Shown here piece by piece: positions 12,509-52,852 of a stretch of DNA of 64,000 nt. The stretch comes from Candidatus Zhuqueibacterota bacterium. GTDB lineage: Bacteria; Zhuqueibacterota; Zhuqueibacteria; Residuimicrobiales; Krinioviventaceae. Both the position numbers and the translations under genes were made by a program. The first letter of the stretch is position 1, and every line of letters starts with the position of its first letter. Under the pieces are notes generated by a model that saw only the letters and a program-made list of their open reading frames with translations, searched no databases and was not told the DNA's origin. The DNA lies in contig JAFGSB010000059.1 of NCBI GenBank assembly GCA_016934825.1, positions 62,001 to 126,000 of the forward strand. Direction: 5' to 3'.

Positions 12509-14320
12509 ATGAGCAGAGCAAAAATTGTAATGTTATTATATGTGTTAACTTTTTTAATGTCCGCATATATAAAATTTACGGCGCCTGAAAAATTCGAACC
12601 CAATTTGGAAGTTACACGAGAAACGGACAGAATCACTCCACTACAAAATACATTAAATTATAAATGGTTTTTAGATCAACAGCGCGCTGAATTTTCTTAT
12701 TCAATTGCAAAACAATTTGGGAAAACCATTGCCAGAGAAAACTTTGATAACGGTGTGGGGAATTATATTATTTCGTATAATGATTCCACTGAAAATTGGG
12801 AGCCGAATTATTTGCAAACGGTAAAGGGGAATGAATATTTTATTTCAATTGATTTGTCGGGCAATACGGGTGATTTTTATGCATTAGATATCAGTAATTA
12901 TAAAAACAGACAAAAACAAACGATATATTCTTTAGATGAAGGGATGACAATCAAAATACCCAAAGATGATTTTGATGAAATACTGATATTTAAAAAAATT
13001 CCTTTAAAAGGGGAGCCGATAAATATTAAATTTAAAAAAGTGAGCAAAGACATAAATAAAAAGGGAAATATTTTGTTTTGCTATGATCAGGTCAACATAA
13101 ATTTGCACGATTCAACCTGGACAATCAAGCAAAACGTTACAGATGAAGAGTGTCTCACACAATTCTCTGCCCTTAACCCTTATTTTGGAGTTGTTTTTGA
13201 TCTGGACGAAAATGCCCTTGAACTCCGCGCGAATTACATAGATTTTGTTGAAGAGAATATAAAAAAGAACAGTAAAGACAGGCTTTATTATAATACACGT
13301 ATGTTTCAGATCAATCCTGAGGAAGAAGCGGAAGCATTTGAAATTACCTATCCGCCGGTTTCGTTTCGAGAGGAAACCCGGATCCCGGTCGGTCTTCCGC
13401 ATAAGCAAACAATTATAGCCAATTTACCCATTCAAAGTATAAATTTGCAGATCGGGAGTAACTATTATCCTAATAGAACCGATTATTATGAATTGGATGA
13501 ATTAAAAGATGACAGCCTGGCGCAGATAGGAGAGTTGTTCGTCAAGCCGCATAGCCATAAACGAATATTCGATATTGTTTTCCCGGTAACGGAAAGCGGC
13601 GGTAAAGACCAGGTTATGGTCACTTTGAAGGCAAAAAGCGGAAATGAAGATGCTTCAAGAAGCTGGCCATTAAATGTTATGGGCCTGAAATTTGCGAGCT
13701 GGCCGCCGATCAAACCCAGGTTCTGGACCGCACGGGAGGATTCTTTATATAACAGGTTCATAAAACGTTTCCCGACGCAGGAAATGTATGAATACGCGAA
13801 CGAAGCGGAAAAAAGAAAATATCCATTGGTTTATGAATCGCGGGAAGTGATTATTTCCCCACATTTTCAAAACGTGGATTTTAATACTTATCAGCAATAT
13901 AGAATTATCTATCCGCAGCAGCCACAGTGGAACGTTGTAAAATCATTACATGACATTACAATGGGAATAAACAATATTCCAAAAAATGTTAATCAATTTG
14001 TTTTTGACGTAGAAACGACTTCGGGTAAGAAGGATATAGCTTTTTATGTTGCGAGTGTGCCCGAAACCAAACGTAATTTCTCTATCCGCCGACAGGAAAC
14101 GAGCGGCGTTTACACACTACTGATAATAGGGTATGATTTTTTTGGCGAAAGAGTGATTATGGATGCAGGGAGTGTATATTTTTCTTCTTCCGTATTATCC
14201 TGGAAAGCGATTGACGATAATTTAATCCAGGTTGAAGGGGGAAGATTGACGGGCAGTATTTCTTTTGAATATTTATTAGATTATTCGGAAAAAACGTTTA
14301 TCGAGACACAATATTTTTAA
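12509..14320 (+). CDS. Unrecognised secreted protein
   Basis: 603 residues with a short N-terminal hydrophobic segment (about 5-22) that looks like a signal peptide or anchor. The rest is beta-strand rich, with many alternating hydrophobic residues and few cysteines. I do not recognise a family. A region near residues 395-440 (ASWPPIKPRFWTAREDSL, then Tyr/Glu-rich helix) superficially resembles the helical part of GWxTD-domain proteins, but the diagnostic GWxTD sequence is not there. The stop is 25 bases before the next start. Its neighbour is likewise secreted, so the two may work as a pair at the cell surface. Confidence 0.72.
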   Translation: MSRAKIVMLLYVLTFLMSAYIKFTAPEKFEPNLEVTRETDRITPLQNTLNYKWFLDQQRAEFSYSIAKQFGKTIARENFDNGVGNYIISYNDSTENWEPNYLQTVKGNEYFISIDLSGNTGDFYALDISNYKNRQKQTIYSLDEGMTIKIPKDDFDEILIFKKIPLKGEPINIKFKKVSKDINKKGNILFCYDQVNINLHDSTWTIKQNVTDEECLTQFSALNPYFGVVFDLDENALELRANYIDFVEENIKKNSKDRLYYNTRMFQINPEEEAEAFEITYPPVSFREETRIPVGLPHKQTIIANLPIQSINLQIGSNYYPNRTDYYELDELKDDSLAQIGELFVKPHSHKRIFDIVFPVTESGGKDQVMVTLKAKSGNEDASRSWPLNVMGLKFASWPPIKPRFWTAREDSLYNRFIKRFPTQEMYEYANEAEKRKYPLVYESREVIISPHFQNVDFNTYQQYRIIYPQQPQWNVVKSLHDITMGINNIPKNVNQFVFDVETTSGKKDIAFYVASVPETKRNFSIRRQETSGVYTLLIIGYDFFGERVIMDAGSVYFSSSVLSWKAIDDNLIQVEGGRLTGSISFEYLLDYSEKTFIETQYF

Positions 14321-14345
14321 TTAAATGTGTTTAACTGGAGGAAAG

Positions 14346-16550
14346 ATGAAATTAAATAAAGCATATTGGTTGATCGGTGTTTTCATATTTTATTTGAATT
14401 GTCCTTTGTTTTCTGCGGGAGAAGAAATTTGGTATACCGATAAGGGCTTGAATGCCGGAACGAATGCGTTTATGGAATTTTTAAACCTGTTTCCAAATAT
14501 ACCTGAAAAGAACCAGGTTACTGAAATAGCGGTAAAAGTAGAATTTGATGAGAACACAAATCAAACAGTTGCAACACAAATTCTGATTAAAAATATAGGG
14601 TCGGATACATACAGACCATATCCGGTTGATATTCCAGGGCAGGTACCGGACGCAGTTTTAAAGTCTTTAATTTTTTCCGTCGATCCGGAAAACGAGGAGG
14701 ACCCTGGCCTATTAGACACCTATCCAAAATTCAGAAGAAAACAGGCGGCATACCTTTCTGTAAAGCCGCCGACGGATATAGCCGGGGAAAAATTTATCTG
14801 GAAGCGCGGGAGCAACGAATCGGATTTTAAAGATGTTGTGGAAAAAATTAATGCCAGGCTTGGCGGCGGACTCAGTTCGGATGAACTTAACAATGTTGAA
14901 GAAATTGTAATGACCACCAATGGTGTTGGCGAAGACCGAAATCTGGTAAACCTGTCATTTGTTTTCGATAAAAACGTTGAGAAAGAAACAAAAGTATTTC
15001 CGGGTATGGATGTGTTTTCTGTGTTAAAAGATAGTTATATTGCCATATCAATAACCAATCAGTTATGGCATGACGGCTTTCATGGTATTAACCAGGACCC
15101 GCCAAATCCCTGGCCGGCAAAATGGAGTACACATTATTATTTTAAACGAGTCGGTCAACTTTGTTCCACAGATAAAATCGTCCTGAGAAATGACAGGGAC
15201 CAAGAAGTAAAATCATACACCGATAAAGAACTCGAAGTGCTTGAATTACAAAGCGGTGTAAATTTTAATTACATTGCGCAAAGGGTCATGAACCAGGCTG
15301 GCAGCGATTTTGTCCGTGTTAAATTGGTCAAGAATTACGATGTAGCTCCTTATCCCTATAATGATCAGGCTAAAATTAAGGAATATAAAATTGATAGTTT
15401 TCCGTTGGTTTCATTCAGGAACTGCAATGTAATAAAATATAAAGCAAATAATGACAGTTCAACAGTCGACAGCAGTTATGCAATCTACGAATACAGTCCA
15501 ATTATTGAAAAAGTTAATTTTTGGGACAAATATTTTGTATTAAGTGCCGGGACCTGGAAACCTGCTGATCAAAGTACTGTAGAAAATGCCTTTATTGAAA
15601 AATCGGATTTATTGACCCTTGGTTACGATAAGGTGTCCATCGATTTCGGGTTAAAAAATCATTTAATTTCTGTCGGATCACAGGCAGGACAGGAAGAATT
15701 CAATTATCCCTTTGTATGGTCCGGCAGTCAGGCTTATTTTATGAAATGGAAATTTGCGACAGGAATGAGCGACATCACAAAGATTATTGATGAAATTGAG
15801 TTTAGTTATCGTAATTATAATGCCCTGTCAAATGAGCTGATCAATGAGGCCGAACAGGCTCTTGATAACAAGTATTTTAAACGTAACGATTTTGTTAACA
15901 GGCGTATTTCCATTAATAATATGCAATTTAGGTTATCGAAAACGATCATTCCTGAAATATCATGGGGATTAAAAATACCCAGAGTCAAGGAGATTGTTCT
16001 GGCTGTTCCTTTCCAGTTGCCAATCAGTTACAGAGATGTAAGAAATATCGGCGGGGATAATAATATCACAGGCGCCGCGGATTATAATAATAATTATACT
16101 TATATTAAAAGTTTAACCGGACTTGAGTTAAATTTCAAGTTTAATGATAATTTGGCATTACCGTTATTAAATGATTATTATTTACGAAATGTTGGGATTT
16201 CATATTATCATTTAAAAGAACAAACAAATAATACCATTCGGGACGGGAAATTTTACTCTGGACAATTTGATAACTATGGCAATATTGAATTTAACGGCGA
16301 TATACCCGAAAAGAATTCCTATTGGTTTATTGAAACCCGCATTGGTTATCCTGACAAAAAAACCGGCGTTGATCAATTCAGTTTAATGTTGAGAACGGGA
16401 TTGGGGGAAAAGTGGTCACAGTACATTTCTGCGCAAACAAAAATAGCTGGTAGTCTCTGGCTGGATATTAAAATTGTTTTTTATCAAACCAATTCATTTG
16501 CTTATGAAAAAGTATATATGATGGGCCCCGTTTTCAGGATTAATTATTAA
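14346..16550 (+). CDS. Unrecognised secreted, probably outer-membrane, beta-rich protein
   Basis: 734 residues. The ATG at 14346 is chosen because GGAGG (14337-14341) lies just upstream; an in-frame ATG at 14325 would put that site inside the gene. A signal peptide ends near residue 24 (LNCPLFSAG). The C-terminal third (from about 530) shows alternating polar and hydrophobic strands with many aromatic residues and ends in FRINY, the aromatic C-terminus typical of outer-membrane beta barrels. The N-terminal part is mixed and not recognised. It ends a three-gene unit closed by a strong terminator. Localisation is inferred from composition; no function is proposed. Confidence 0.75.
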   Translation: MKLNKAYWLIGVFIFYLNCPLFSAGEEIWYTDKGLNAGTNAFMEFLNLFPNIPEKNQVTEIAVKVEFDENTNQTVATQILIKNIGSDTYRPYPVDIPGQVPDAVLKSLIFSVDPENEEDPGLLDTYPKFRRKQAAYLSVKPPTDIAGEKFIWKRGSNESDFKDVVEKINARLGGGLSSDELNNVEEIVMTTNGVGEDRNLVNLSFVFDKNVEKETKVFPGMDVFSVLKDSYIAISITNQLWHDGFHGINQDPPNPWPAKWSTHYYFKRVGQLCSTDKIVLRNDRDQEVKSYTDKELEVLELQSGVNFNYIAQRVMNQAGSDFVRVKLVKNYDVAPYPYNDQAKIKEYKIDSFPLVSFRNCNVIKYKANNDSSTVDSSYAIYEYSPIIEKVNFWDKYFVLSAGTWKPADQSTVENAFIEKSDLLTLGYDKVSIDFGLKNHLISVGSQAGQEEFNYPFVWSGSQAYFMKWKFATGMSDITKIIDEIEFSYRNYNALSNELINEAEQALDNKYFKRNDFVNRRISINNMQFRLSKTIIPEISWGLKIPRVKEIVLAVPFQLPISYRDVRNIGGDNNITGAADYNNNYTYIKSLTGLELNFKFNDNLALPLLNDYYLRNVGISYYHLKEQTNNTIRDGKFYSGQFDNYGNIEFNGDIPEKNSYWFIETRIGYPDKKTGVDQFSLMLRTGLGEKWSQYISAQTKIAGSLWLDIKIVFYQTNSFAYEKVYMMGPVFRINY

Positions 16551-37452: not shown

Positions 37453-37470
37453 AGGTTGACGCACAGCACA

Positions 37471-38883
37471 ATGGATAAGATAAAAAACTTGTATGATAAA
37501 TTAAAAGCTATTTCTCAGGAACATGTGCTCAAATATTATGACGAACTCAAAGAAGAGGAGCGACAACTATTATTAAACCAGTTAAGTCGTATTGATTTCG
37601 ATTTGTTGCGGCAGTGTAATATTTTGTTAAAAAAGAGTGACGGCTCCGGACATTATATTCCCGGCACACTTGAGCCGATGAAAGTGGTCACATTACCGAA
37701 AACAGAATCTGAAAAAAAAGAATACGAAAAAGCCTTTAATATTGGAGAGAAATTAATATCAGAGGGCAAGGTCGGATCGATTCTTGTTGCCGGAGGACAG
37801 GGAACCAGGCTGGGATTCGACGGCCCCAAAGGTACATTCCCGGTCGGACCCATTACCGACAGGTCCCTGTTTCAATATCACACGGAAAAAATATTGGCCC
37901 GGGAGAAAAAGTTGAATGCCGCAATTCCGTTTTACATCATGACGAGTGAATTAAATTATTTACAAACAAAGGATTTTTTTAAGCAGCATCGTTACTTTAA
38001 AAAAGAGAAAGACTCGTTTGTCTTTTTTGCGCAGGGCATGCTGCCCGCGCTCAGCGCGGAAGGGAAAATGTATTTGTCGGACAAGTTTAAAATAAGTGTC
38101 GCACCCGATGGTCATGGAGGTTTATTACGCGCCCTGTTTGTGAACAGGTTGTTAGATGATATGCAAAAACGCGGGGTTGAGTACCTGTATTATTTTCAGG
38201 TCGACAGCCCGCTGGCAAATGTTTGTGATCCGGCTTTTATTGGCTATCATGTATTGAAAAACGCGGAAATGTCAGCCAAAACCGTTTATAAACGGGGCCC
38301 TTATGAAAGTCTTGGCAATATTGGTAAAGTTAATGGAAAAAATGTGGTAATAGAATATTCGGAACTAACCCGGAAGGAAATGGAAGAGCGTAACCCGGAT
38401 GGCAGGCTAAGGTTTGGTCAGGGAAGTATTGGTATTCATGTTTTCAGTGTTAATTTTTTCAGACGGTTACATGACAAAAAACAAGATTTACCCTATCATA
38501 TCGCACATAAAAGAATACCCTATATCGATGCGGCCGGGAATCTCGTCCAGCCGGTTGAACCGAATGGTTACAAGTTTGAACAATTTATTTTTGACGCGTT
38601 CCCTTTTGCGAAAAAGATTATGGTCTTCGAAACGGACCGGAAAAAGGATTTCAGCCCGATCAAAAATAAAGACGGCTTTGATTCTCCTCAAACCGCCCGG
38701 CAGGATTTGTGTAATCAATTCGGGAATTGGCTGGGGAAAGCGGGATTTCATGTGAAAAGGGATAGTAACGGTAATGTGCTTGATAAAATAGAAATCAGTC
38801 CTCTTTTTGCGTTGGATGAAAAAGAGTTTCATAACAGGAAACCAAAACCTAACGGCAATAAAGACGGCTATCTCTTTGAATAG
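37471..38883 (+). CDS. Eukaryotic-type UDP-sugar pyrophosphorylase (UAP1-like)
   Basis: 470 residues. Joins UTP and a hexose-1-phosphate, most likely N-acetylglucosamine-1-phosphate, to form UDP-GlcNAc. The nucleotide-binding loop LVAGGQGTRLGFDGPKGTFPVG (shown in part) belongs to the UDPGP family (PF01704), not to bacterial GlmU. An N-terminal QEHVLKYYDELKEEER helix, the EYSEL motif and the C-terminal NRKPKPN-like lysine region resemble eukaryotic UAP1. Start placed at the ATG; a TTG at 37456 in frame directly touches the preceding AAAGG. Only 18 bases follow lon. Such genes occur sporadically in bacteria; the sugar used here is inference. Confidence 0.88.
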   Translation: MDKIKNLYDKLKAISQEHVLKYYDELKEEERQLLLNQLSRIDFDLLRQCNILLKKSDGSGHYIPGTLEPMKVVTLPKTESEKKEYEKAFNIGEKLISEGKVGSILVAGGQGTRLGFDGPKGTFPVGPITDRSLFQYHTEKILAREKKLNAAIPFYIMTSELNYLQTKDFFKQHRYFKKEKDSFVFFAQGMLPALSAEGKMYLSDKFKISVAPDGHGGLLRALFVNRLLDDMQKRGVEYLYYFQVDSPLANVCDPAFIGYHVLKNAEMSAKTVYKRGPYESLGNIGKVNGKNVVIEYSELTRKEMEERNPDGRLRFGQGSIGIHVFSVNFFRRLHDKKQDLPYHIAHKRIPYIDAAGNLVQPVEPNGYKFEQFIFDAFPFAKKIMVFETDRKKDFSPIKNKDGFDSPQTARQDLCNQFGNWLGKAGFHVKRDSNGNVLDKIEISPLFALDEKEFHNRKPKPNGNKDGYLFE

Positions 38884-42218: not shown

Positions 42219-42250
42219 AATGTGTTTTATTTTTGTTTTGGAGGTTTATA

Positions 42251-42814
42251 ATGATAAAATTAAAATATTATATATTATTTATCGCATTCATCTTTCTGGT
42301 TTTTTTAGCGTGCAGTGTGCAGGTTCCGGAATTTAATGTGACTGGTGAAAAAACTTCACTCGAAAACCAGGTGCTTGGTGCATATCAGCAGATCGAAAGC
42401 GACACCTGGGTGATTGCTTCCACACGTTCGATCGGCAGCGGTCAAACAACACCGATGTCGACGAGACGGCGGCAGGTTTTGGAAGCGGTGCAGAACCGAA
42501 AATTCAACAAAGATGAAATTGACGAATTTAAAAAAGACCGCACGGTCGGTGAAAACAATAAAGGTTTTTTGACCATTCTGTCCTCGGAAAAATATAAAAC
42601 GGATGATAATTATCGCCGTATTGTCGATCAGGTTGTTAAGGAAGAAAATCTGGACCGTGAAGTCGTTTACGAACGAATCGTTGCCATCAACCAGTCTGCG
42701 GCGGAGGCCGGTCAGGAAGAACGGGATCAAATATTTGCCAAGCTCAATTTTGATAATTCGCCTTCGGGTACCATGATACAAAAACCTGACGGCGAATGGA
42801 CTGAAAAAAAATAG
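42251..42814 (+). CDS. YdbL-like (DUF1318) lipoprotein
   Basis: 187 residues from the ATG at 42251, which has GGAGG (42240-42244) 6 bases upstream; an in-frame ATG at 42233 lies before that site. Hydrophobic signal ends in VFLAC with Cys21, a plausible lipobox. The part from about 75 on has the DUF1318/YdbL pattern: VGENNKGFL, then EENLDREVVYERIVAINQ and a closing PDGEWTEKK. In E. coli YdbL is a soluble periplasmic chaperone and a separate small lipoprotein, YnbE, pairs with YdbH. Here one lipoprotein has both a lipid anchor and the YdbL domain, and no separate ynbE-like gene is seen. Confidence 0.78.
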   Translation: MIKLKYYILFIAFIFLVFLACSVQVPEFNVTGEKTSLENQVLGAYQQIESDTWVIASTRSIGSGQTTPMSTRRRQVLEAVQNRKFNKDEIDEFKKDRTVGENNKGFLTILSSEKYKTDDNYRRIVDQVVKEENLDREVVYERIVAINQSAAEAGQEERDQIFAKLNFDNSPSGTMIQKPDGEWTEKK

Positions 42815-42891: not shown

Positions 42892-45800
42892 ATGAAAAAG
42901 ACCTCCTTGAAAAAGATAATTTTTGTATTTGTTTTATTAGTTATTTGTACACCCGGATTGTATGCTCAGCCGGGCGGTAAACAGATACTGGATTATCAAC
43001 AGGTTACCACCCACCCGGATATAGATTTGTCCGCCCGCATTTCTCCGGACGGCAAATGGATGACTTATGTATCACGGCAGTCCGGGAATTTTGATATCTG
43101 GATACGCAGTACAGCCGGCGGGCGCGATATCCAGGTCACTTTTCACAAAGCGGATGATTATTACCCGGTATGGTCGCCGGATGGCCGGTCGATCGTTTTT
43201 GTCTCCCAGCGCAGCGACGCGGAAGGGGATATCTGGCGAGTTTATTTGCGGGAAGTAAAGGGTAGATTATACCCAAAAGATGAACTGGAAAGGCTGACTG
43301 ATTACCAGGGCATGGACGGATATCCGACCATATCGCCCGACGGCTATAAAATCGCCTGGGTTTCGGACCGTACCGGCCGGGAGGAGTTATGGTTTTATAA
43401 TGCCAGAACTGAAAACACGCTGCCGTTAACTTTTAAAGGAGGGACTCATCCAGTCTGGAGTCCAGATCAAAGATTTATTGCTTTTACCTCATTTCGGGAC
43501 GGGCAAGACAATAACGGAGATATTTTTGTTATCAATTTAAAAGGGCCGAGACCTTCCGGAATCGACACATTACTCTGGGATACCCGTGAATATCCCACCT
43601 GGCAGGTAACCAAAGGACCCGCTATAGACGGATTCCCAAGCTGGACACCGGATGCGAAAAACGTAACTTTTCTCAGAATGAGTTATGATACAAACAGAGA
43701 CGGGAAATTAACGCCTGTTGACCGGGCCAGCGTTTGGGAAGCGGAAGTTTTCGAATTCCCAACGGATTCACTTCAGGCAAAGGATTCGATGCTCGAAATT
43801 CTTGAGGAATCATTTAATATACGTATGGTACGATATGCCATGCCGTTAACCTCAGGTGGAGAAAACACCATGCAACCCTGGTCCGGAGCCAATGACCGTG
43901 TATATTTTACTTCGGACAGAGGCGGGAATCTGGATGTGTGGTCGTTTCCATCCAAAGGACATATTCCTCAAATGCAAACTCCGCAGGAACAGTTTGAACT
44001 GGCCGCTTCCGCGTATCCTTTGACGGACAGAATGACCAGACAGACACTCGGCTCCCTGTTTTTATATTGGGATCCGTCCACTATGACCAACCGCGAACAG
44101 TTGCTTGTCTGGGACCGGTTACTGGCGTTCCGCAGGGTCATAGATTTTCATAATTCAATGAATCCCTTTGCCGCACTGGCCTATTATGAGATGGGTGTTT
44201 GTTTAGACCTGCTGGATTATCCCGACAGGGCTGACCGGTTTTTACAGTTGTTATTGGATAATTATCCTGCAGAACGCAAAATATCGGCCTATGCCGAGAT
44301 GGCGCTGCTCGGATTAAAAGCGAAGCAGGCGGACGAGAAAACAAGACTCGATTTTTTATTATCCGGTTTGAATAATGTAATTGACACATATAATGACCAG
44401 CCCGAACCGGCTGCTGCGGCACGGATCATGATAGGTGATTTGTTGTTCAGAGTTAATAAAGACGCTCAGGCTTTTAATGAATATAAAAAAGTACTGGAGG
44501 AGTATCCCCAGCAGCGCTCGGAATGCGCGGAGAGCCAGTTAAAAATCGGCGATGTCTTTAACCGTTTCGCAACCCGCGCGGAAGTCATCAATGCCTATTT
44601 ACAGGTTGTTATTCATTATCCCGAACAAAGGCAATGGATGGTGCCCGCAAGAGACCGGATACTGGACATGCTGACTATGGGAGTGTCCCGGGAAATTGAA
44701 CTGGTGGGACAATATCGCGAAATTGTTGGTCAATATGCGCAATTCCCTTTACTGGCCGCCGCGGCCCAGCAGCGCATAGGCGATATACTTTATAAAAACG
44801 GGGATTTTGCCTCGGCAATCCAGGAATATGAGATGATTGAGTCCCTGTTCCCTGATCTCACGGATGAAGTTTTTACGGCCCAGATGTCTAAAGCGAACGC
44901 GTTATTAAAGATGGGAGAAAAACTTCAGGCTTTTAATCTCCTGGAACAATTATATAAAAAATTCGAGTCATCAAGGGCCGAATTATCGCAAAAAGCGTGG
45001 GACAAGCTGCTTGCGTCGTTACTGGAATCCGGGGATGAATTAAAACTATTACAGGAATTCAATCTGGCCCTGTTGCGGTATGCCCGCGCGAAAGAAATGG
45101 CCCCGGATGATTTGCATGCCCACCGGGGGTATATTGAATGCATGTATTATTTGAGAAAGATCGGGCAGGCCGTTATCGAATATGAAAATCTGGTCAGGCA
45201 ATATCCCGAAAAACAGATAATTTTATATTCTCTTGGGTTGGCTTATTCATATCAGGGAACGGAAAAAGCTGAATTGTATAATGACCCGGATGCCCTGGAT
45301 AAGGAAATTTTAAACCGGTCCAGTTACACGATTGCGCGGGCGTTGGCTTTTGATTATACGCTCGTTCAACCCTATTTGACAATCAGTTATAATTACGAAA
45401 TGATGGAACAGGCGCTTGCCCGGGAACGGGCCAAACCGAAAAGTTTTTTTGTCAAAGCTTGGGACATGTTAAAAGCGCCGTTCGAATCGTTATATAACAC
45501 GATAACATTTGCCAATGTAGAGCCAACACGAGGTTATTATGAACGGGCAATTCATGAATTGACCAAAGCCATAGGGCTGAACGATGAAGAACAGGATCCG
45601 GCCCTGGAAGCGAACCTGGCATTGAACCTGGCTAATAATTATTATAATTTAGGCGAATATGGATATGAAAAGGCCTATGAATATTATCATGTAAAATTAA
45701 AATATGATTCAACATTTTTCGATAAAAAGCGGGAAGCCGTCATTTACGAACGTATGGGACATTGCGCACTGATCGTTGAGGACCTGGAAAGGGGACCGGA

Positions 45801-48800
45801 ATATCTGAAATATGCCATTCAACTCTACCAGGAACTGGAAGATGAAACTCATGTGCTTTTGAATATCAACCGGCTGGCCCTGTTGTACCAAATAGGCGAT
45901 GTGAATGAATATGCCATAGAATATTTTCAAATGGCCGCGGCCATTCAAAAACGGAAAAACATGTACGACGATCTGATGCGAAGTTATCGCAGCATTGCCT
46001 ATAATTATCTTCAGCTTGAAGAACCAAATGACGCAATAATTTTTGCCCGGCAGGCGCTTGATTTATTGGAAACCGGTAAAGTCAAAGTCGTAAAATCGGA
46101 AGCCAGTCGGGTTAAATTGGGATTTTTAGGGCTTTATTTTCCGGTCCCGTTTCTTGATCTGAGTAAAATGGGGACCGGCGCCGCCTTAAAATTTACCACC
46201 GAGGATGAAAAGGCGCTAGTCTATTCCATTTTGGGAACGAGTCATAGTCTGGAAAAAAATTACTCGGAAGCAATCGATTTTTTTGAAAAAAAGCGGGAAA
46301 TTTATAAAAAACGTAAGGATTATGAAGCGGTTGCCACTTTTTTAAATAATATCGGTTATTTGTATTTTTTAAAGGGTGATTATTCAAATTCATGGTCTTC
46401 TTTTTTAGAGTCATATGAAATCTGTAAAAAACGGGAAATAATAAGGGGAATCATCGTTAACAGCACCAACCTGGCAAAAATTGTACTGTCAATGAACAAT
46501 GCCTTTCAGGAAGGAATGCTGGATTATGACAGCTCGGGAAATGATTTTAAATCCTATCAAAACATTGCGGCTGAAAAGATCAATTATGCGCTGGAGGTAA
46601 CAGGCGAAGAAGAGACCCGATATGCCCGTTTGAAAAGCATTTTATACAGGTATCTTTCGGAATTTTCCCTCATATCCTATAAATACGGTGCCGAACAGAA
46701 TATTCAATCCGATATCATTTCAACTATGAATATTTTGAACAACGCCTCTTTTGCGCAAACATATCTGGAAGAGGCACTGCGGATCAGCAGGCAAAATAAC
46801 CTCATTAACGAGGAATGTTCGGTACTGTACACCCTGGGCAAGTTGTTCATGCTGCTGCACAATACCGATAACGCTTATGTAAATCTGATAAACAGCAGAA
46901 GACTTGCCATAAGAAACGGTTTTTTTGATTTACTCTGGAGAATCGATACGGATTTGGGCGATTTGTTGGCCACCATGGACCGTACGGTTAAGCGAAAACA
47001 TTCTATCCAGCGTGACGCTTATGAATTTTATAATGAAGCAATCGATGTCATGCGCGCCCACCCGGAGGACATATCCGGCGCAAACGCCGCCATGACCAGA
47101 CAGGCCCATCAATTACCCTATCGTCGGGCCATTAAATACCTTGTCGACAAAGGTGATTATAACGGCGCCCTTGCTTTTTCGGAACAGATGCGGTCCAATA
47201 TATATCTTGATATTGTTCGCGGTGAGAATATTGTCCTGCGTAAAGAGCGTCATAAAATTTATTATGGGAATGCCAAGTTTTTACAAAACAGGATTAATGA
47301 ACTGGAAATAGAACTGCTGCGGTCCCGATACCAGTACGATATACCATTTACCCATATTGTTGAAATTCGGGATCAACTGGAAAATTATAAAAACGAATAT
47401 CAGGAATTACTTGAAAACACCCGCGAGGAGGTGCCTGAACTTGAAACGCTGGTTCGCGCCAATCCCATTCCGGTTTCCGCAGCGCAAAACCGTTTACGTC
47501 AAGATGAAGCGATCCTGTACTTTACATCGCAGGATGAAGATGTTTTATGCTGGCTAATTTTACCCGGAAATGTTGAATTCAGTAAAATAAAGTTGTCCCG
47601 GGTCACCATAAATCTGCAAATCAAATCATTATTTGAAGCGATAAAAACCGGAAATACGGACGATCAATCCTTTCAGGAACTGTTCTCCTTATTATCGCCG
47701 CTGGAAAAAACGCAGCAGCGGGTTAATCGTCTGATTATCATTCCCGCCCTGGATTCCATATTATTGCCCTGGTCCATTTTCACACAACAGATAGAAAATC
47801 AGGGTTCCGAACCTCTTTCTTTTGTGGTTTGTTCCAGTTTGACCGATTATTACTATTCATATGACAAGAGAAAGATTCAGGGAAACAGAATATATTTTGC
47901 TGCCCATTTGGAACCATCGGATTATCTTAAACAGGACGGCTATACTATTATGCTGCCACTGACAAGCCAGGAACAAAACAGTTTTTCCGCGCAGCTTCAA
48001 CCCCTTAGTATGTCCGATTTCCTTTATTTATCCGTTCATGGAGAATGGAACGATATTGATCCGGCAAGATCGCGTATCGGTTACACGATCAGGCGCTCTT
48101 CTCCAGCCGTATTTTCATCCCTGGATCTGTACCGGATATCACTGAACGCGAACCTGGTTTACCTTGGTTTTAATTCATCAATCCCCAGGAACAAATTCAG
48201 CGAGCCGTTTATTGCGTGGGAAAGGGCTTTCCGGTATGCCGGCGTACCCGCGATACTGATCAATTTGTGGGAATCTAATTCGGAAGATAATAGTGAATTT
48301 TTATCTGTATTTTATAAAAATTTAAAAACAAACCCCGCCGCAAAAGCCCTGTCGGAAACACAACAATTCTTTAAAAGTAAGGGGAAACCCGAAAGTTTCT
48401 GGGCGCGTTTTCAGCTTTATGGGTTTGGCGGTATGACCCGGGAAGAAGAGGAAAAGTATGCTGTCGAAGGATTTGAAATTCAGGTACGACGCGGACACAG
48501 CGCCTTTGATCTCAGCGAATGGGCGGACGCTATTCGTTTTTATGAAAGCGCGTACCATATGGCGGAACGGCATAATGATGAACAAAGCGTAAAATTACTT
48601 CAGCAGCGTATTCTGGAAAGTGCTGTAAACGGCGCTTTATGGGACAAGGCAATTGAAATTCAGCTTGAGCAAATATCAAAAGCGCAAAAACAAAATAATA
48701 TTGCCGCAGTCGCGAACGGGTACAGTAACCTTGCTTATTTTTATACCCAGAACGGGCAATTCGAAATGGGCGTGCAGGCAAAAGCCAAATATTCCCAACT

Positions 48801-51336
48801 GGCGGAGCAGTATGGTTTAAAAGAAGAAGAGGCGAAATCTCTGCGCGAGACCGGTTTGATTTATGAACGCGGCGGGAAGTATAAAGAAGCCGTAGAATTG
48901 TTCACAATAGCAAAACAAAAGTTTTCAGAGTTGGATAACCAGGCCGGCGTCGCGCAATGCCTGCGTGATATCGGGCGGATAAATTTTGTCTATTTTGATA
49001 ATTATTATGATGCCCTCGTCGTTCAGGAGGACGCACTGATAATTTTCCGCCGACTGGGCCTTACACCGGATTTGGTGGATGCCCTGCATAACCTGGGTAT
49101 TACCTGTGAAAAAATGACTAATTACAAGCAGGCGTTACAGTATCAAAAAGAGGCGCTGCAATATTCGCAACAGTTAGGCGAAAAAAAGTTAACCGGTCTT
49201 TCCAAACAATATCTTGCCAATATTTACTGGAAAATGGGAGAATTTCAAAGCGCCCTGACAAATCAAAACGAGGCGCTTGATATTTTCACCGCTTTGAATG
49301 ACGAAAAGTTGTTACAGGTGGGGAACGCAACCCGTGGTCTGATCGCCCTCAGTTTTGGACAGCCGCAAAAGGCGCTTTCTTTTGAATTAAAAGCCCTTGA
49401 AATGGCCTCCAACAGGGGAGATCAAAAAGACCAGGCGACGATATACAAAAATATCGGCATGATACAGCGTACTATGGGCAGGGATGATTTGGCGTTATCC
49501 AGTTTTGAACAGGCGGCATTAATTGATTCGTCCATCGGATCAAAAAGCGGTCTGGCTTATGATTACAGAAATATAGCTACAAATTATATTGAAAAGGGCA
49601 GCAGTTCTCTCGCGCGGAATTATTGTAACCGGGCCCTTGCGCTATCCGGGGAGATCGGCGATTGGCGAAATCAGGCGCAGTGTTATCTGGAACTGGGACG
49701 AATTGAAATTCTTGACGACAATCCGGATTCGGCCATTGTGTACTTTAATAAAACGGCGGATCTGTCCGGGCAATTGTTCATGTCGGATATTGAATGGCGC
49801 GCCCATAAATATTTGGCGGAGATAAATCGTAATACGGAAAACATTCAACAGGCCGTAAAGCATTATTACGACGCGCTTGATGTGATTGAAAATATGCGCT
49901 CGAGAATCAAGGTCGAGGAATACGCGTCCGGGTTTGTCGACGACAAGGCTGATGTATACGGGGCTTTAATATCTTCATTGTTGGAACAGGGACAGACCGG
50001 CGAGGCGTTACAATTGGTGGAACGGGCCAAAAGCCGCAGTTTTCTGGACATGCTGGGGAATAAAAATATTTCATTCAAATCTAAAAACGCGGAACTTTTG
50101 TCAAAGGGGGACAGCCTGCAAACGCATTTGGCGGCTTTGCAAACACAATTGTTTTATATCAGAACGACGGCGGACAGCCTGCGGCAAAGCCGGGAAAACG
50201 AATTGCAGGAAAAAATTGCGGCGTTGCAGGATGCCTATTCCGCTTATTTAATTAAAATCCGCGAAGCGGACCCGGAACTGGGCGAAATGATGACTGTTGA
50301 ACCATGGCCGGTCTCTGAAATTCAATCTATTTTACCCGACAGTACGGGACTTTTGGAATATTATATTTACGGTAATTTTTTATACTCCTGGTTTGTAACA
50401 TCTCAAAGTGTTGAATATACAAAAGAGGAAATAACCGAAGAGGAACTTTACCAGGATATATTTGATTTACGACAGGCGCTGGAACGACAGCTTTCCATTA
50501 CAAAATGGTCGCAAAAGCTTTATCATCATCTCATATCCCCATGGGAGAATCAACTGACAAAAATCGGAAATGTGGTTATCATCCCGCAAACAAAATTACA
50601 TTATTTACCGTTTGCGGTTTTGCAGGACAATATCAACGAATATTTCGGACTCAAATACTCATTATCCATAGCACCCAGCGCCACGGTATTCGGCTTTTGT
50701 ATGAAAAAAGGCGATTCCCTGTTATCTCAAAGCAGGCGTGATATGGCCGTGCTTGCTTATGGGAACCCTGACCTTGGGGATAAAAATTTGGCCCTGCCGT
50801 TCGCGTCCAGGGAAGTGAACAGTTTGAATCGTTATTATAACAGGGTCAATGGTTATCTGGAAAAAAGGGCCTCCGAAACAAACCTGTATGATCAAAACAG
50901 TTATCCACCGCTGATCATTTTCAGTTGTCATGGCGTTTATGACGATGTGAATCCGCTGCTTTCGGCCCTGATGCTGGCGCCGGATTCAAGCAACGACGGC
51001 AGGCTGGAAGCGAATGAAATTTTTACACTTGATTTGAACGCTTTTATCGTGGCGATGAGCGCCTGTGAAACCGGTCTGGGAACCATTCGCGGCGGCGATG
51101 AAGTGGTCGGACTGTCCAGAAGTTTTATTTATGCCGGCGCGTCATCCCTGCTTTCCAGTTTATGGAAGGTGGATGATCTGGCGACCGCTGTTTTGGTCAA
51201 ACGCTTTTTCCGCAACCTGGCTGAAGGCAAATCCCGTACCGAAGCGCTGCGCCTGGCGCAAAAAGTTGTTTATGATGAAATAAATCCGTATCCCTCTTTT
51301 TGGGGCGCTTTTACGATTACCGGGGATTTCCGTTAA
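42892..51336 (+). CDS. Giant secreted TolB-propeller/TPR protein with two CHAT domains (first one inactive)
   Basis: 2814 residues. Signal peptide about 1-25 (ending YAQPGG). A six-bladed TolB-like propeller (about 35-390) shows PD40 motifs such as ISPDGKW, WSPDGRS and WSPDQRF. TPR repeats fill about 395-1428 and again 1862-2370. Two CHAT (caspase-like, separase-related) modules follow each TPR block: 1429-1862 and 2376-2814. The second has the dyad H2680 (SCHGVYDD) and C2725 (SACETG). The first has H1716 (SVHGEW), but the Cys position is N1761. H-to-C spacing is 45 in both. Matching segments (SEQMRSNIYLDIV and VERAKSRSFLDML) open both modules, so they arose by duplication. Substrate unknown; export suggests periplasmic or surface action. 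Confidence 0.9.
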   Translation: MKKTSLKKIIFVFVLLVICTPGLYAQPGGKQILDYQQVTTHPDIDLSARISPDGKWMTYVSRQSGNFDIWIRSTAGGRDIQVTFHKADDYYPVWSPDGRSIVFVSQRSDAEGDIWRVYLREVKGRLYPKDELERLTDYQGMDGYPTISPDGYKIAWVSDRTGREELWFYNARTENTLPLTFKGGTHPVWSPDQRFIAFTSFRDGQDNNGDIFVINLKGPRPSGIDTLLWDTREYPTWQVTKGPAIDGFPSWTPDAKNVTFLRMSYDTNRDGKLTPVDRASVWEAEVFEFPTDSLQAKDSMLEILEESFNIRMVRYAMPLTSGGENTMQPWSGANDRVYFTSDRGGNLDVWSFPSKGHIPQMQTPQEQFELAASAYPLTDRMTRQTLGSLFLYWDPSTMTNREQLLVWDRLLAFRRVIDFHNSMNPFAALAYYEMGVCLDLLDYPDRADRFLQLLLDNYPAERKISAYAEMALLGLKAKQADEKTRLDFLLSGLNNVIDTYNDQPEPAAAARIMIGDLLFRVNKDAQAFNEYKKVLEEYPQQRSECAESQLKIGDVFNRFATRAEVINAYLQVVIHYPEQRQWMVPARDRILDMLTMGVSREIELVGQYREIVGQYAQFPLLAAAAQQRIGDILYKNGDFASAIQEYEMIESLFPDLTDEVFTAQMSKANALLKMGEKLQAFNLLEQLYKKFESSRAELSQKAWDKLLASLLESGDELKLLQEFNLALLRYARAKEMAPDDLHAHRGYIECMYYLRKIGQAVIEYENLVRQYPEKQIILYSLGLAYSYQGTEKAELYNDPDALDKEILNRSSYTIARALAFDYTLVQPYLTISYNYEMMEQALARERAKPKSFFVKAWDMLKAPFESLYNTITFANVEPTRGYYERAIHELTKAIGLNDEEQDPALEANLALNLANNYYNLGEYGYEKAYEYYHVKLKYDSTFFDKKREAVIYERMGHCALIVEDLERGPEYLKYAIQLYQELEDETHVLLNINRLALLYQIGDVNEYAIEYFQMAAAIQKRKNMYDDLMRSYRSIAYNYLQLEEPNDAIIFARQALDLLETGKVKVVKSEASRVKLGFLGLYFPVPFLDLSKMGTGAALKFTTEDEKALVYSILGTSHSLEKNYSEAIDFFEKKREIYKKRKDYEAVATFLNNIGYLYFLKGDYSNSWSSFLESYEICKKREIIRGIIVNSTNLAKIVLSMNNAFQEGMLDYDSSGNDFKSYQNIAAEKINYALEVTGEEETRYARLKSILYRYLSEFSLISYKYGAEQNIQSDIISTMNILNNASFAQTYLEEALRISRQNNLINEECSVLYTLGKLFMLLHNTDNAYVNLINSRRLAIRNGFFDLLWRIDTDLGDLLATMDRTVKRKHSIQRDAYEFYNEAIDVMRAHPEDISGANAAMTRQAHQLPYRRAIKYLVDKGDYNGALAFSEQMRSNIYLDIVRGENIVLRKERHKIYYGNAKFLQNRINELEIELLRSRYQYDIPFTHIVEIRDQLENYKNEYQELLENTREEVPELETLVRANPIPVSAAQNRLRQDEAILYFTSQDEDVLCWLILPGNVEFSKIKLSRVTINLQIKSLFEAIKTGNTDDQSFQELFSLLSPLEKTQQRVNRLIIIPALDSILLPWSIFTQQIENQGSEPLSFVVCSSLTDYYYSYDKRKIQGNRIYFAAHLEPSDYLKQDGYTIMLPLTSQEQNSFSAQLQPLSMSDFLYLSVHGEWNDIDPARSRIGYTIRRSSPAVFSSLDLYRISLNANLVYLGFNSSIPRNKFSEPFIAWERAFRYAGVPAILINLWESNSEDNSEFLSVFYKNLKTNPAAKALSETQQFFKSKGKPESFWARFQLYGFGGMTREEEEKYAVEGFEIQVRRGHSAFDLSEWADAIRFYESAYHMAERHNDEQSVKLLQQRILESAVNGALWDKAIEIQLEQISKAQKQNNIAAVANGYSNLAYFYTQNGQFEMGVQAKAKYSQLAEQYGLKEEEAKSLRETGLIYERGGKYKEAVELFTIAKQKFSELDNQAGVAQCLRDIGRINFVYFDNYYDALVVQEDALIIFRRLGLTPDLVDALHNLGITCEKMTNYKQALQYQKEALQYSQQLGEKKLTGLSKQYLANIYWKMGEFQSALTNQNEALDIFTALNDEKLLQVGNATRGLIALSFGQPQKALSFELKALEMASNRGDQKDQATIYKNIGMIQRTMGRDDLALSSFEQAALIDSSIGSKSGLAYDYRNIATNYIEKGSSSLARNYCNRALALSGEIGDWRNQAQCYLELGRIEILDDNPDSAIVYFNKTADLSGQLFMSDIEWRAHKYLAEINRNTENIQQAVKHYYDALDVIENMRSRIKVEEYASGFVDDKADVYGALISSLLEQGQTGEALQLVERAKSRSFLDMLGNKNISFKSKNAELLSKGDSLQTHLAALQTQLFYIRTTADSLRQSRENELQEKIAALQDAYSAYLIKIREADPELGEMMTVEPWPVSEIQSILPDSTGLLEYYIYGNFLYSWFVTSQSVEYTKEEITEEELYQDIFDLRQALERQLSITKWSQKLYHHLISPWENQLTKIGNVVIIPQTKLHYLPFAVLQDNINEYFGLKYSLSIAPSATVFGFCMKKGDSLLSQSRRDMAVLAYGNPDLGDKNLALPFASREVNSLNRYYNRVNGYLEKRASETNLYDQNSYPPLIIFSCHGVYDDVNPLLSALMLAPDSSNDGRLEANEIFTLDLNAFIVAMSACETGLGTIRGGDEVVGLSRSFIYAGASSLLSSLWKVDDLATAVLVKRFFRNLAEGKSRTEALRLAQKVVYDEINPYPSFWGAFTITGDFR

Positions 51337-51739: not shown

Positions 51740-52852
51740 ATGGAACCAAAAACAGGAAATGTTCCATCGGGACGGGTCCTCTCCATTGACGCGTTGAGGG
51801 GATTTGATATGTTCTGGATTATCGGGGGAGATGTTTTCTTTAAAAGTGTTTTCAGGCTTTTCAACAGACCTTTTGCCGATGCTCTGGTAGAGCAGCTGGA
51901 TCATTCCGCATGGCACGGATTTACCTTTTACGATCTGATATTTCCGTTATTTTTATTTATTGTCGGATTAAGTATGCCTTTTGCGATCGGAAGGCGCAAA
52001 GAAAAGGGACATACCAAAAAGGAAATATTCGGGCACATTATCAAAAGAGCGCTCACCCTGTTGGTGCTGGGTTTAATCTATAACGGTTTGTTTGATCTGG
52101 ATTTTGCTCATTACCGTTACACGGGCGTTCTGCACCGGATAGCCATTTGCTATTTTATTGCGGCGGTCATTACCTTGAATGTAGGCATCAAAATGCTTGG
52201 GGTCATTGCCGGGAGTATACTGCTGGTATACTGGGGCATTATGATGCTCATCCCTGTTCCCGGATTCGGCGCGGGCGTTTTAACGCCTGAGGGCAACCTG
52301 GCCGGTTATCTTGACCGGTTGTTGCTGCCGGGCAGTTTTTGCTGTTATGGATTTGGGGACAACGAAGGTATTCTCAGTACCCTGCCTTCCGTTGCAACAA
52401 CATTACTGGGGGTTATTACCGGCTGCTGGCTGAGGTCCCTGCGGACGCAAAAGAAAAAGGTACTATGGATGATTGGCGCCGGTGTTTTGTTTTTAGTGCT
52501 GGCGCGGGTATGGGACCTGGTGTTCCCAATTAATAAACTGATCTGGTCCAGTTCATACGTCTTGTACACCGCCGGATGGAGTTTGTTGTTATTATCCTTA
52601 TTTTACTGGATTATCGACATGAAAGGTTATCATAAATGGGCTTTTCCTTTTGTTGTAATCGGTTTGAATCCCATTACCATTTATGTCGCGCAGAGCCTGT
52701 TTGATTTCAGCATCATTTCCGATATTTTCATTCATGGATTTGTGTTTCGTCTTGGTATTTTTTCGGCTGCATTCGGATTGCTGTGCGCTTTTCTGGTTAA
52801 ATGGTATTTTCTGTACTTTTTATACAAACAAAAAATATTTCTCAAGGCATAA
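51740..52852 (+). CDS. DUF5009/HGSNAT-like membrane acyltransferase
   Basis: 370 residues with about ten membrane helices. The N-terminus has the family signature RVLSIDALRGFDMFWIIGGD, followed by a lumenal/periplasmic loop with DHSAWHGFTFYDLIFPLFLF, in which the histidine corresponds to the active-site His of heparan-alpha-glucosaminide N-acetyltransferase. Bacterial members are thought to acetylate cell-surface sugars using cytoplasmic acetyl-CoA; the substrate is unknown. GGGAGA precedes the ATG. It stands alone between gaps. Confidence 0.88.
   Translation: MEPKTGNVPSGRVLSIDALRGFDMFWIIGGDVFFKSVFRLFNRPFADALVEQLDHSAWHGFTFYDLIFPLFLFIVGLSMPFAIGRRKEKGHTKKEIFGHIIKRALTLLVLGLIYNGLFDLDFAHYRYTGVLHRIAICYFIAAVITLNVGIKMLGVIAGSILLVYWGIMMLIPVPGFGAGVLTPEGNLAGYLDRLLLPGSFCCYGFGDNEGILSTLPSVATTLLGVITGCWLRSLRTQKKKVLWMIGAGVLFLVLARVWDLVFPINKLIWSSSYVLYTAGWSLLLLSLFYWIIDMKGYHKWAFPFVVIGLNPITIYVAQSLFDFSIISDIFIHGFVFRLGIFSAAFGLLCAFLVKWYFLYFLYKQKIFLKA

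Follow-up and report, generated by a model that had tools for sequence, protein, structure and literature searches.

The 64,000-nucleotide stretch of DNA analysed here (hereafter the window) belongs to a draft genome of 179 contigs from a bacterium of the Zhuqueibacterota, a phylum also named candidate division KSB1 (PMC11683472). On its forward strand it carries an operon encoding an AsmA-superfamily protein, a DUF1318 lipoprotein and a very large exported protein, hereafter referred to as the giant (Table 1). The giant runs from a signal peptide through a PD40 propeller, a series of TPRs and a first, pseudo-protease CHAT module (CHAT1) to further TPRs (TPR2) and a second CHAT module (CHAT2). 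Pfam recognizes a TolB-type PD40 domain, many TPRs and CHAT twice, and in a search of the giant's own genome the two CHAT stretches reached 191.9 and 45.8 bits, the cut-off being 24. The spacing within the two modules is identical, 45 residues separating H1716 from N1761 and H2680 from C2725, which confirms the first-pass annotation of this DNA in its description of a 2814-residue reading frame with two CHAT modules, an asparagine in the first standing where the second has a cysteine.

Table 1. Coordinates (positions in the window) and supporting evidence for the features of the AsmA-DUF1318-giant locus.
Feature	Coordinates	Strand	Evidence or remark
UTP-glucose-1-phosphate uridylyltransferase-like gene; often found upstream, association uncertain	37456..38883	+	
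AsmA-superfamily protein, 1097 aa, N-terminal membrane segment	38925..42218	+	Pfam AsmA and DUF748
YdbL-like (DUF1318) lipoprotein; ATG at 42251 likelier start; lipobox Cys27 invariant	42233..42814	+	Pfam DUF1318, alignment, hhalign
Giant exported protein, 2814 aa	42892..51336	+	ATG start; single-copy relatives of ~2650-2880 aa in the phylum
Signal peptide, residues 1-25	42892..42966	+	Sequence; hydrophobic N-terminus in 47/47 aligned proteins
TolB-type (PD40) beta-propeller, ~residues 34-360	42991..43971	+	Pfam PD40, NCBIfam propeller_TolB
TPR core, residues 735-1165	45094..46386	+	Entropy profile; alignment A1, 30 invariant columns
CHAT1 module, residues 1429-1870, predicted pseudo-protease	47176..48501	+	Pfam CHAT, predicted fold
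H1716 (CHAT1), not conserved	48037..48039	+	His in 2/52 rows
N1761 (CHAT1), opposite catalytic Cys	48172..48174	+	Cys in 0/52 rows
TPR2, second TPR superhelix, residues 1871-2375, between the CHATs	48502..50016	+	Pfam TPR_12; model
CHAT2 module, residues 2376-2814, dyad intact in window protein	50017..51333	+	Pfam CHAT, 190.6 bits
H2680, predicted catalytic His	50929..50931	+	His in 36/41 rows
C2725, predicted catalytic Cys	51064..51066	+	Cys in 35/43 rows

The signal peptide of the giant reads MKKTSLKKIIFVFVLLVICTPGLYA^QP and is of the Sec type, with cleavage probably occurring after LYA. Each of the 47 aligned giants with an available N-terminus has a hydrophobic stretch there, which in some of them, including several from families f10 and f11, bears a lipobox. 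The signal peptide noted in the first pass thus extends to homologues, and the aligned N-termini support the view that export of the giant is conserved in the family.

A search with CHAT1 returned relatives in 53 of 63 genomes of the class, the weaker matches including ordinary CHAT proteins. Giants were counted with a profile of the TPR core (residues 735-1165), which is specific to the giant and, according to an entropy profile, the best conserved region across the class. Of the phylum's 82 genomes, 57 contain the giant by this profile, as a rule in one copy and, where complete, typically 2650-2880 aa long. A second phylum has it in 5 of the 39 genomes searched, each time with a DUF1318 gene adjoining. 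Most giants of the two phyla have both CHAT modules. We found no paper describing this family in the open-access literature searched. The window genome encodes two more CHAT proteins of about 1100 aa (L001, G000:C166:31933-32793; L002, G000:C9:4540-5463), both ordinary TPR-CHAT proteins with His and Cys, L002 having in addition a C-terminal hydrophobic segment. Elsewhere in the window, positions 12509-16550 hold two adjacent open reading frames of 603 and 741 aa without a Pfam match at 1e-5.

An ancient, catalytically dead CHAT copy

Comparison of CHAT1 and CHAT2 family profiles aligned 415 columns with a probability of 100% (E = 2e-52) and placed N1761 opposite C2725, bearing out the internal duplication proposed in the first pass. 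Both modules score above the Pfam gathering threshold (PF12770, clan CD), and Pfam CHAT was recognized in 21 of 28 CHAT1 segments. As a family, CHAT1 is devoid of the His-Cys dyad: none of the 52 aligned rows has Cys in the N1761 column and only two have His in the H1716 column, a sister protein of the same genus having Thr. The histidine earlier reported as common to the two modules is thus a true property of the window protein that does not hold family-wide, and since no relative has Cys at the N1761 column, a simple recent mutation of the active site can be ruled out. The AlphaFold model of CHAT1 (mean pLDDT 91.5) nonetheless has the expected caspase-like fold; a Foldseek search with it returned Csx29/TPR-CHAT as best match (E 1.8e-13), followed by human separase (E 3.8e-10). 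In a tree of CHAT domains the CHAT1 rows occupy one side of a branch with support 86, which indicates that the duplication is older than the sampled lineages. Alignment and predicted fold together support CHAT1 as an anciently inactivated pseudo-protease that retains the caspase/CHAT fold, as had been surmised from the window protein. None of the three conditions that would have overturned the first-pass reading, a fold other than caspase-like, homologues with Cys in place of the Asn, or homologues devoid of a signal peptide, was encountered.

The same annotation had likened the giant to eukaryotic separase, with a dead protease half set beside an active one. CHAT1 by itself aligns over 508 columns with the 490-residue SPD of C. 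thermophilum (5fby), essentially its full length, and also aligns with TPR-CHAT/Csx29. The CHAT modules each span an entire separase protease domain and lie some 500 TPR residues apart. A model of residues 1612-2811 (pLDDT 86.6, pTM 0.67) comprises CHAT1, a long TPR superhelix and CHAT2, the relative placement of the CHATs not being readable from it. Fold coverage and domain spacing speak against the separase layout and argue instead for a tandem of two complete TPR-CHAT units, the first of them dead.

Conservation and repeated loss of the second CHAT module

Pfam CHAT matches all 20 CHAT2 members searched, seven of which also match the separase family C50 (best 2e-6); for the CHAT2 of the window the C50 profile was not reported at E <= 0.01. 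The predicted catalytic residues are widely kept (His, 36 of 41 CHAT2 rows; Cys, 35 of 43), and across all 32 members with an intact dyad CHAT2 is the most conserved domain of the giant (mean identity 44%), with CHAT1 (25%) among the least conserved. Such conservation where the dyad remains fits an active protease under selection.

The earlier expectation of an active second module thus holds for the dyad of the window protein and of most lineages, but the dyad is not always kept. It is gone from seven members of families f1 and f3, the giants of G026 and G066 stop where CHAT1 ends or close to that point, and in that of G013 (family f8) propeller and TPR core remain but no CHAT is detected; the truncated giants are single genomes each, in which assembly faults are possible. 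A tree built from the propeller and the TPRs of the N-terminal part requires at least four losses of the CHAT2 dyad or domain, and the propeller, the TPR core and the operon neighbours stayed where these happened. The giants of G013 (L118) and G012 (L117), both of family f8, are very diverged relatives with AsmA and DUF1318 neighbours still in place, that of G012 being cut by a contig end.

Loss of the dyad is accompanied by divergence of a defined part of the protein. Six CHAT2-dead members of one order show mean identities of 50% in the propeller and 49% in the TPR core, and of only 22% in TPR2 and 20% in CHAT2; in six CHAT2-intact members of the same order, a set somewhat less diverse overall, TPR2 and CHAT2 show 57% and 56%. 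The joint drop in identity indicates that TPR2 and CHAT2 behave as one unit, and the alignments portray CHAT2 as usually intact yet dispensable.

These patterns bear on two other ways of reading the giant. The mechanism put forward in the first pass, in which CHAT1 binds or positions the substrate and gates CHAT2 within one chain in the manner of separase, could draw on the persistence of the CHAT1 fold without its dyad, on the presence of both CHATs in most members of two phyla and on the distant C50 similarity of CHAT2 in 7 of 20 members. Besides the coverage and spacing described above, it conflicts with the low conservation of CHAT1 where CHAT2 is intact and with the several lineages that keep CHAT1 with CHAT2 dead or absent, and we consider it unlikely. 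We are similarly doubtful of a pure scaffold, in which both CHATs would be mainly architectural protein-binding folds and proteolysis vestigial or unimportant: retention of the gene and its neighbours through at least four losses, and the f8 giant with propeller and TPR core in which no CHAT is detected, are what such a scaffold would produce, but where CHAT2 is intact it is the most conserved domain phylum-wide, dyad included, a pattern implying that selection maintains activity in most lineages.

Co-inheritance with an AsmA/DUF1318 envelope module

A search for conserved neighbours, suggested in the first pass, revealed a new and strong genetic link of the giant to an envelope module. The gene order AsmA-DUF1318-giant recurs across the phylum, with AsmA upstream in most loci, and the lipobox Cys of the DUF1318 protein is invariant in 21 aligned proteins. 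Across the 82 genomes of the phylum, giant and DUF1318 occur together in 54 and are both missing from 21, three genomes having only the giant and four only DUF1318 (Fisher p = 1.1e-12, uncorrected for kinship). Because the genomes are related, this value overstates the evidence, the joint absences representing perhaps half a dozen independent events. Of the giant-only cases, two (G043 and G073) are clearly cut by contig ends and the third (G041) lies near one. DUF1318 adjoins the giant in 44 of the 54 genomes having both. AsmA relatives, detected in 59 of the 82 genomes, show the same association (both present in 55, giant only in 2, AsmA only in 4), and all three genes are jointly missing from families f7 and f12 and genus g12. 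The operon itself is not rigid: in f9-f11 the DUF1318-giant pair persists with the AsmA gene elsewhere, and in part of f13 the giant-AsmA pair persists, the DUF1318 gene lying elsewhere in most of that family.

No conserved downstream gene that could encode a substrate was seen, the gene 3' of the giant being common to the nearest relative only. A NagX-like gene of the transmembrane acyltransferase type lies downstream of the giant at positions 51740-52852; its NCBIfam score of 307 bits falls short of the cut-off of 480. Within the DUF1318 protein, the segment around W59 (ESDTWVIAS) occurs in 24 of 26 CHAT2-intact and 3 of 9 CHAT2-lost genomes (Fisher p = 0.001), a column chosen after looking and for which four independent losses leave a pairwise test powerless; as a weak lead, this segment might be a docking or cleavage site.

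The neighbourhood also speaks to a possible role as a defence or cell-death protease resembling Csx29/Craspase or the activators of bacterial gasdermins. Although the closest solved relatives of the giant are the TPR-CHAT proteins of type III-E CRISPR systems, the giant is exported, single copy and conserved phylum-wide with envelope genes; no defence genes were seen among the neighbours scanned, and PADLOC matches were to a generic TPR model only. Neighbours and PADLOC thus lend a defence reading no support, and we regard it as very improbable.

The reading we favour, with a probability of about 0.6, is that the giant is an exported scaffold docked on an AsmA-type lipid-bridge machine, carrying a detachable TPR2-CHAT2 protease and a CHAT1 that has become a structural relic. 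On this reading the AsmA-superfamily bridge protein and the YdbL-like DUF1318 lipoprotein would make up an envelope machine, with the giant as an exported subunit or partner. The giant's propeller and TPR core would be the part that stays constant and attaches it to this machine, either in the periplasm or at the outer membrane. TPR2 and CHAT2 would act as a detachable caspase-like unit cleaving an envelope substrate held by TPR2, possibly a component of the machine itself, and CHAT1, the inactive copy from an internal TPR-CHAT duplication, may now serve as a structural spacer or binding surface. An envelope ligand may act as trigger, as envisaged in the first pass, but the AsmA/DUF1318 module is a more specific candidate partner.

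Co-inheritance with AsmA and DUF1318 suggests that a caspase-type protease was recruited to outer-membrane upkeep. Taken further, and here we are speculating, the separase-like protease might be a working subunit of the lipid bridge that switches or recycles intermembrane lipid transport by cutting a bridge component in the envelope, the DUF1318 lipoprotein being one candidate. The ancient inactive copy would then act as scaffold, and some lineages would have retained the scaffold when the cutting module was lost. Previous work places CHAT proteases in CRISPR systems, cell death and the division of cyanobacteria, and separase, their relative in eukaryotes, in chromosome segregation; to our knowledge, little has been established about the partners of AsmA-type bridges or about how these bridges are regulated. 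A conserved, exported CHAT member co-inherited with AsmA and DUF1318 would tie caspase-like proteolysis to outer-membrane assembly, and operons that are otherwise alike but differ in whether CHAT2 is active, dead or missing constitute a natural experiment on the purpose of a pseudo-protease.

Comparison with known systems

AsmA proteins also have functions besides lipid transport. The closest parallel for the operon is E. coli K-12 ydbH-ynbE-ydbL, which likewise combines an AsmA-superfamily protein and a DUF1318 protein in a single operon, and whose YdbH has been proposed, with YhdP and TamB, to bring phospholipid to the outer membrane (PMC8593681, PMC12977461). The DUF1318 protein of the window scores above the Pfam cut-off and aligns with E. 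coli YdbL (hhalign E = 4e-7). The AsmA protein, in contrast, matches Pfam AsmA and DUF748 but not the YdbH-specific PF11739, and its profile gave no significant alignment with E. coli YdbH, so that it failed both profile tests of YdbH identity. No separate YnbE was found; a YnbE-YdbL fusion was suspected from the lipobox, but profile comparison lent it no support, the lipobox and a short conserved stretch of the DUF1318 protein giving no significant YnbE match. The window operon further differs in that its DUF1318 protein is itself a lipoprotein and in the addition of the giant. With DUF1318 matching YdbL and AsmA failing the YdbH tests, the claim is that the system works like YdbH-YnbE-YdbL, not that it is that system, and it is from this analogy that we infer a role of the giant in moving lipid to the outer membrane.

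The giant itself resembles Csx29 of type III-E CRISPR (Craspase), its best solved match by sequence and by fold, in having a TPR array followed by a CHAT with a His-Cys dyad. Csx29 has a single CHAT and works in the cytoplasm, where its partner is the Cas7-11 effector; the giant carries an export signal, two CHATs and a propeller, and lies beside AsmA and DUF1318. A PD40 propeller in an exported protein recalls TolB of Tol-Pal, but the match reaches 111 bits against an equivalog cut-off of 343 and the remaining architecture is unrelated. HetF of Anabaena is a membrane-associated CHAT-TPR protein and divisome component (PMC8406250); unlike the giant, it has an N-terminal CHAT and one transmembrane segment and is without a propeller or a duplicated CHAT. 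The transmembrane anti-sigma factor DdvA (PDB 8rot) is a further fold match of CHAT1. Eukaryotic separase, to which TPR-CHAT has been likened (PMC9729208), shares with the giant helical repeats and a caspase-like protease domain recovered by Foldseek; separase has one such domain, and the giant has two complete modules parted by TPRs, the first of them dead.
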